From: an uncultured Oscillospiraceae bacterium
GTDB lineage: Bacteria > Bacillota > Clostridia > Oscillospirales > Oscillospiraceae
Length of the DNA: 64,000 bases
Direction: 5' to 3'
NCBI GenBank assembly: GCA_947626315.1
Contig: CANQRQ010000009.1
Coordinates: forward strand, 1 to 64,000
Part shown: positions 60,144-60,171 of the stretch, piece after piece
How the letters are laid out: each line of letters begins with the position of its first letter
How positions within the stretch are numbered: the stretch's first letter is position 1
Translations under genes and position numbers: made by a program
Notes under the pieces: model-generated
Seen by the model: the letters and a program-made list of their open reading frames with translations, nothing else
What the model was told of the DNA's origin: nothing
Database searches by the model: none

Positions 60144-60171
60144 GGTTCGCATAATATCAATTAAGCGAACT
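60144..60171 (+). other. dif-like Xer recombination site (11-6-11)
   Basis: GGTTCGCATAA-TATCAA-TTAAGCGAACT; arms are 9/11 inverted repeats; 35 bp upstream of a Xer-type recombinase. Confidence 0.65.

Follow-up and report, generated by a model that had tools for sequence, protein, structure and literature searches.

The genome of an uncultured Oscillospiraceae bacterium carries a 28-bp inverted repeat 35 bp upstream of a gene for a Xer-type tyrosine recombinase, which raises the question whether this repeat is the site at which chromosome dimers are resolved and, if so, whether one recombinase or two act there. We consider it very likely (probability about 0.9) that the 28-mer is the chromosomal dif of this bacterium and that the product of the neighboring gene, named here Xer1 (gene xer1), is its recombinase, with recombination itself being inferred in the absence of an assay. 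Predictions of dif in Firmicutes have followed the two-recombinase model of B. subtilis (PMC3025954), and a Clostridial dif system like Xer1 and its site was not found described in the literature we searched, a search that was incomplete and left out most subscription journals.

A single dif-type site upstream of xer1

The following features were assigned in the window, i.e., the whole stretch of 64,000 nucleotides that was analysed.

60129..60157, plus strand: TTGAAA-17-TAATAT, a possible sigma-70 promoter that overlaps the dif-type site and rests on a consensus match only (1 found, 0.3 expected by chance)
60144..60171, plus strand: dif-type site GGTTCGCATAA-TATCAA-TTAAGCGAACT (11-6-11), single copy in the genome, kept upstream of orthologues, arms covarying
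60144..60154, plus strand: left 11-bp arm, predicted recombinase half-site, based on inverted-repeat geometry and the covarying arm pairs 2-27 and 3-26
60155..60160, plus strand: 6-bp centre TATCAA, predicted strand-exchange region, based on constrained asymmetric centres in the genus and TAAAAA-type centres in the family
60161..60171, plus strand: right 11-bp arm, predicted recombinase half-site, on the same basis as the left arm
60207..61214, plus strand: xer1, 335-aa Xer-type tyrosine recombinase with PF00589 and PF02899 and catalytic residues R176, K198, H270, R273, H296 and Y305
62033..63640, minus strand: radA ORF, adjoining the dif site in most of the family, also where xer1 has moved away

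The two arms are 9/11 inverted repeats around the 6-bp centre, with mismatches at positions 1 and 8, and 35 bp (60172-60206) separate the site from the recombinase ATG at 60207, so that the geometry described by an earlier sequence-only reading of the locus held exactly as written. With up to three mismatches allowed, the 28-mer was found once in the window and once in the whole genome (68 contigs, 2.68 Mb, of which the window's contig is C9), compared to none in shuffled sequences and none for the reversed pattern; the further copies for which that reading had proposed a search do not exist in this genome at that tolerance. Likewise, a separate canonical dif, which it had named as refuting, did not emerge, as the XerCD-type pattern gave six matches at three mismatches in the own genome versus seven in the control and thus nothing above control. 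Three general criteria for a dif, namely about 28 bp with inverted arms and a short centre, one copy per chromosome and a position at the terminus or GC-skew switch, are fulfilled, and in relatives the dif-type site is also mostly present once per genome.

Conservation and covariation of the arms

Within the genus, a related 28-mer precedes nearly all of 75 Xer1 loci, usually 15-75 bp from the ATG and mostly at about -63. The outer arm bases vary between species and both arms change together, with compensatory versions such as ATCTCGC..GCGAGAT, ATGTCGC..GCGACAT and ACTTCGC..GCGAAGT, and the complementarity of arm pairs 2-27 and 3-26 was reached in 0 of 500 shuffles, keeping in mind that related species are not independent. 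The centres are constrained and asymmetric (TATAAA, TATCAA and others), and this genus also has a consistent asymmetry at positions 8 and 9 of the inner arms. Several same-genus genomes have the site about 500 bp before the xer1 ATG.

Some loci show additional sequence near the site. Five of them (L030, L045, L055, L063 and L070) contain a leader of about 440 extra bp without evident gene between site and xer1 ATG, and two others (L051 and L058) have HNH/NUMOD-type homing-endonuclease-like ORFs just upstream of xer1, recognised by eye without a family search, of which the one in L058 sits between site and gene.

The genus-type pattern, searched in 151 family genomes, matched only within the genus, and the view of a narrow, genus-only feature was rejected once the upstream regions of other genera revealed a palindromic variant. 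There, a perfect 11-6-11 palindrome lies before the Xer1 orthologue, which has about 50% identity; its typical form is ACTCAACAAAA-TAAAAA-TTTTGTTGAGT, with inner arms that are mostly ACAAAA/TTTTGT and centres of the TAAAAA type. The palindrome core is present in 103 of the 151 family genomes, mostly once, and a coordinate tally placed the site within 1 kb of Xer1 in 78 of 101 family genomes having a site (median distance 102 bp). Moreover, other families and orders of Clostridia have comparable palindromes before Xer1 that differ in their outer arms, e.g., ATTATACAAAA-TAAAAA-TTTTGTATAAT, TAGTCACAAAA-TACTTA-TTTTGTGACTA and ATTTCGGGAAA-TATACA-TTTCCCGAAAT. Across the class, a dif-like 11-6-11 palindrome was detected within 200 bp upstream in 31 of 58 Xer1 loci versus 0.2 expected from the palindrome rate elsewhere in those same loci, and the gene-site pair recurs across much of the class Clostridia. 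The remaining 27 loci, including those of the closed genomes G158, G281, G367 and G289, have no dif-like palindrome within 200 bp; the unit is either not universal in the class or has diverged beyond the reach of the palindrome test.

Detached sites keep their position at the replication terminus

Site and Xer1 are separated in about 20 genomes, either on different contigs or by more than 30 kb. Most of these detached sites that we read are still perfect palindromes, and most of those examined still adjoin radA. As the site persists beside radA with terminus-like skew while xer1 is elsewhere, relocation of the gene leaves the site at the terminus.

The terminus position itself is supported by the placement of Xer1 relative to dnaA and by GC skew. 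In 12 closed single-contig genomes starting at dnaA, Xer1 is located at 0.455-0.582 of the chromosome, all twelve within 0.082 of the midpoint, for which the chance under uniform placement would be about 4e-10, a figure that overstates independence, since the 12 genomes are related. Furthermore, GC skew, which was sampled at 20 stretches per genome and not completely, gave the best step between 1560 and 1620 kb in G129 (site at 1606.5 kb) and between 2020 and 2075 kb in G078 (site at 2059.6 kb), and the noisier skew of G098 was still consistent with a switch at the site. For the contig of the window itself, the skew splits best at 61 kb, the site being at 60.15 kb. The left-right skew contrast at the sites, attached and detached alike, exceeded all 2000 random placements, with 0.072 at detached sites compared to a null of 0.014 (sd 0.015), and some individual detached sites (G108, G009) showed no local skew switch. 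Together, the sequence data show that the site is a terminus site.

Four detached sites (L211, L203, L202 and L216) have unequal arms, e.g., ATTAAACAAAA-TAAAAA-TTTTGTTGCAG, and are possibly hybrids left by integration; neither a second site copy nor microvirus genes were found nearby. In the window, a gene for a DUF6873 protein (61278-62036, minus strand) lies between xer1 and radA, and the gene upstream of the site (58358-60058) looks like one for a membrane protein and is partly P-type-ATPase-like (weak PF00122 match, below cutoff).

Microvirus proviruses at the site

The palindrome core was matched four times in viral contigs. One contig, L243, is a microvirus according to PHROGs (replication, capsid and pilot proteins) with a provirus span of 152-5410. 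Its palindrome at about 152 is intact, while the copy at about 5378 is a hybrid, TCTAAACAAAA-GCCTTA-TTTTGTTCAAT, beyond which lies host radA. A second microvirus, L242 (109-5178), likewise has one intact and one hybrid copy, and an intact site paired with a modified one is also seen in known dif-integrating elements (PMC9765430). The bases that the two copies of each pair have in common lie to the TAA/AACAAAA side of the centre, which would be expected if exchange takes place there. The sequences show phage insertion at the dif-type site, which gives indirect support for Xer recombination there.

The other two matches (L240 and L241), with unequal outer arms inside phage genomes, were rejected as probably due to chance, and the genus-type pattern had no match in the viral contigs. 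None of 80 capsid relatives of the provirus carried the site at up to one mismatch, and the attachment site is therefore not general to those microviruses; a capsid search identified none of the viral contigs with other palindromes as a microvirus. As a separate observation, one locus (L104:2870-3010, genome G119) contains an imperfect second site, CGCCAACAAAA-TAGCCG-TTTTGTTGAGT, 109 bp from the intact one, resembling the scar of a lost integrated element.

Xer1 is a tyrosine recombinase below the XerC, XerD, XerS and XerA cutoffs

The xer1 ORF matches PF00589 at 1.6e-44 as well as PF02899, both Pfam domains of tyrosine recombinases, and the residues R176-K198-H270-R273-H296-Y305, which complete the R-K-H-R-H/W-Y set, are invariant in an alignment of 59 Xer1 proteins. 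The scores against four named families stayed below cutoff: 235.6 bits for the XerC equivalog TIGR02224 (cutoff 335.15), which is all the same its best NCBIfam score, 209 bits for the XerD equivalog TIGR02225 (cutoff 329.6), 202.6 bits for archaeal XerA NF040815 (cutoff 220) and, far below, 145.3 bits for XerS (cutoff 267). Thirteen further Xer1 members match the same families. The closest solved structure by sequence is XerA (5hxy), with XerH (5jjv) a weaker match (6.8e-17) ranking behind XerA and XerD. In a small tree the Xer1 proteins group together with a support of 0.89, and E. coli XerC, E. coli XerD and the XerD of the family fall outside their clade; XerS and XerL were left out, and membership in XerS was judged by the NCBIfam cutoff instead. 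Overall, we read Xer1 and its site as a new variant of single-recombinase Xer/dif systems, whose membership in XerS or XerL is not shown. An Xer1 protein match is present in 96 of 98 good family genomes, a few of these matches being XerD only.

The second chromosomal Xer of the genome is a true XerD by NCBIfam (338.5 bits, cutoff 329.6), encoded about 11 kb from xer1 beside ruvCAB-type genes, and XerD is present in most family genomes. In a protein search of draft assemblies, XerD was not found in near-complete genomes of seven genera (G066, G146, G046, G135, G060, G092, G100, G105 and G133), all of which retain Xer1 and the site.

Discussion

Regarding the mechanism, we propose that after an odd number of crossovers has joined sister chromosomes into a dimer, the two copies of the site would meet at the division septum, where Xer1 subunits would bind both inverted arms of each copy and form a tetramer, and strand exchange over the 6-bp centre via Tyr305 would then give two monomers. 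In this model, the binding and catalysis steps, the homotetramer and a dependence on FtsK, if any, are inferences. Symmetric arms in most of the family, together with the lack of XerD in several lineages, make it most probable that Xer1 needs no partner, like XerS, XerH, XerA and XerL, a conclusion we regard as likely and for which there is no assay.

We lean, by a narrow margin, towards a bolder reading, in which much of Clostridia would resolve dimers by Xer1 alone on a mirror-symmetric 28-bp dif beside its own gene at the terminus, as a previously undescribed single-recombinase lineage whose arms co-evolve with the recombinase across species and whose co-resident XerD is free for another task. 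Dimer resolution is basic housekeeping. Many dominant gut bacteria belong to Clostridia, and a one-recombinase unit across this class would alter the mechanism assumed for a large group. Additionally, such a unit would supply a terminus marker for draft genomes, its covarying recombinase-site pairs would give a natural series for specificity studies, and the site would explain the integration of some microviruses in these hosts.

Most of what the sequence-only reading proposed beyond the geometry was borne out. Its self-contained dimer-resolution unit marking the terminus is supported by the skew of the own contig, the conservation upstream of orthologues, the lack of a canonical dif above control and the position opposite dnaA; the GC-skew shift it predicted near 60.15 kb was met by a switch at about 61 kb, the orthologues at which it had proposed to check conservation keep the site with covarying arms, and the other Xer genes it raised amount to a real XerD about 11 kb away that is absent in several relatives. 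Its description as XerS-like held in part, as the inferred way of working is similar, but the score is far under the XerS cutoff and the site is not a 31-bp difSL. The likeness it saw between the left arm and the XerC-binding arm of E. coli is probably a matter of chance, given that ACAAAA/TTTTGT inner arms prevail in the rest of the family, and its alternative of an autoregulatory operator failed as the main role.

Among the rival explanations, a two-recombinase dif survives best, in which Xer1 is a divergent XerC partnering the nearby XerD with one arm each, as in XerCD/dif. In favor of it, an XerD above cutoff is encoded about 11 kb away and in most family genomes, XerC gives the best NCBIfam score of Xer1, and positions 8 and 9 of the inner arms are asymmetric in the window's genus, where XerD is present; this asymmetry would suit two recombinases and is the main observation against a single one. 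However, the arms are perfectly symmetric and covarying in most of the family, XerD is missing from the near-complete genomes of seven genera with Xer1 and site, and Xer1 lies about 100 bits under the XerC cutoff in a clade of its own apart from E. coli XerC and XerD, which makes this reading unlikely.

Far less support remains for the palindrome as solely an autoregulatory operator of the recombinase gene. It does lie 35 bp before the ATG, overlapping a possible -10 element, and palindromes are typical of operators, but the site occurs away from Xer1 in about 20 genomes, mostly (of those examined) by radA at the terminus, it is about 500 bp from the ATG in several same-genus genomes, and neither placement opposite dnaA nor phage insertion would be expected of an operator. 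Given the promoter overlap, autoregulation of xer1 may exist as an additional, secondary effect but cannot be the main role. Also improbable is the attachment site of a mobile element with its adjacent integrase, i.e., a decayed integrative element. Xer1 is a tyrosine recombinase and microviruses integrate at the site, yet Xer1 is near-universal in the family and occupies a constant position in the chromosome, with core genes such as radA around it, and the site remains single-copy; an ancient origin from an element is not excluded by these data. A transcription terminator or RNA leader element, suggested by the intergenic position and the possible stem, is virtually ruled out, as no terminator-like match and no Rfam family were found at the site, the AT-rich inner arms and centre are conserved at the sequence level, and the site is retained where the neighboring genes differ.

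The dif reading places Xer1 among systems with which it has single traits in common. XerS/difSL of streptococci and lactococci is likewise a self-contained module in which a lone recombinase gene directly adjoins its site at the terminus (PMC5357621), but difSL has 31 bp, an 11-bp centre and unequal arms, compared to 28 bp and a 6-bp centre here. XerL/dif of Legionellales resembles our case in its single recombinase (inferred for Xer1), uninterrupted inverted-repeat arms, terminus position and first detection through an integrating element (PMC9765430); it belongs to a different phylum, and L. pneumophila xerL is more than 400 kb from dif, whereas xer1 is usually beside its site. XerA/dif also combines a single recombinase, as inferred for Xer1, with two 11-bp inverted repeats around 6 bp and sometimes an adjacent gene (PMC5357621), but is archaeal, while Xer1 is bacterial. 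With XerC/XerD-dif (E. coli; CodV/RipX of B. subtilis), the Clostridial system has in common the 28-bp 11-6-11 terminus site, the catalytic residues and a mostly co-encoded XerD; the classical arms are unequal and bound by two proteins, whereas in most genera the Clostridial arms mirror each other, and some genomes lack XerD. Finally, gokushoviruses and other microviruses are known as ssDNA phages that use the dif of their host (PMC7062461, PMC3091885), and unlike those known dif-integrated proviruses, the microviruses found here use the palindromic Clostridial site.
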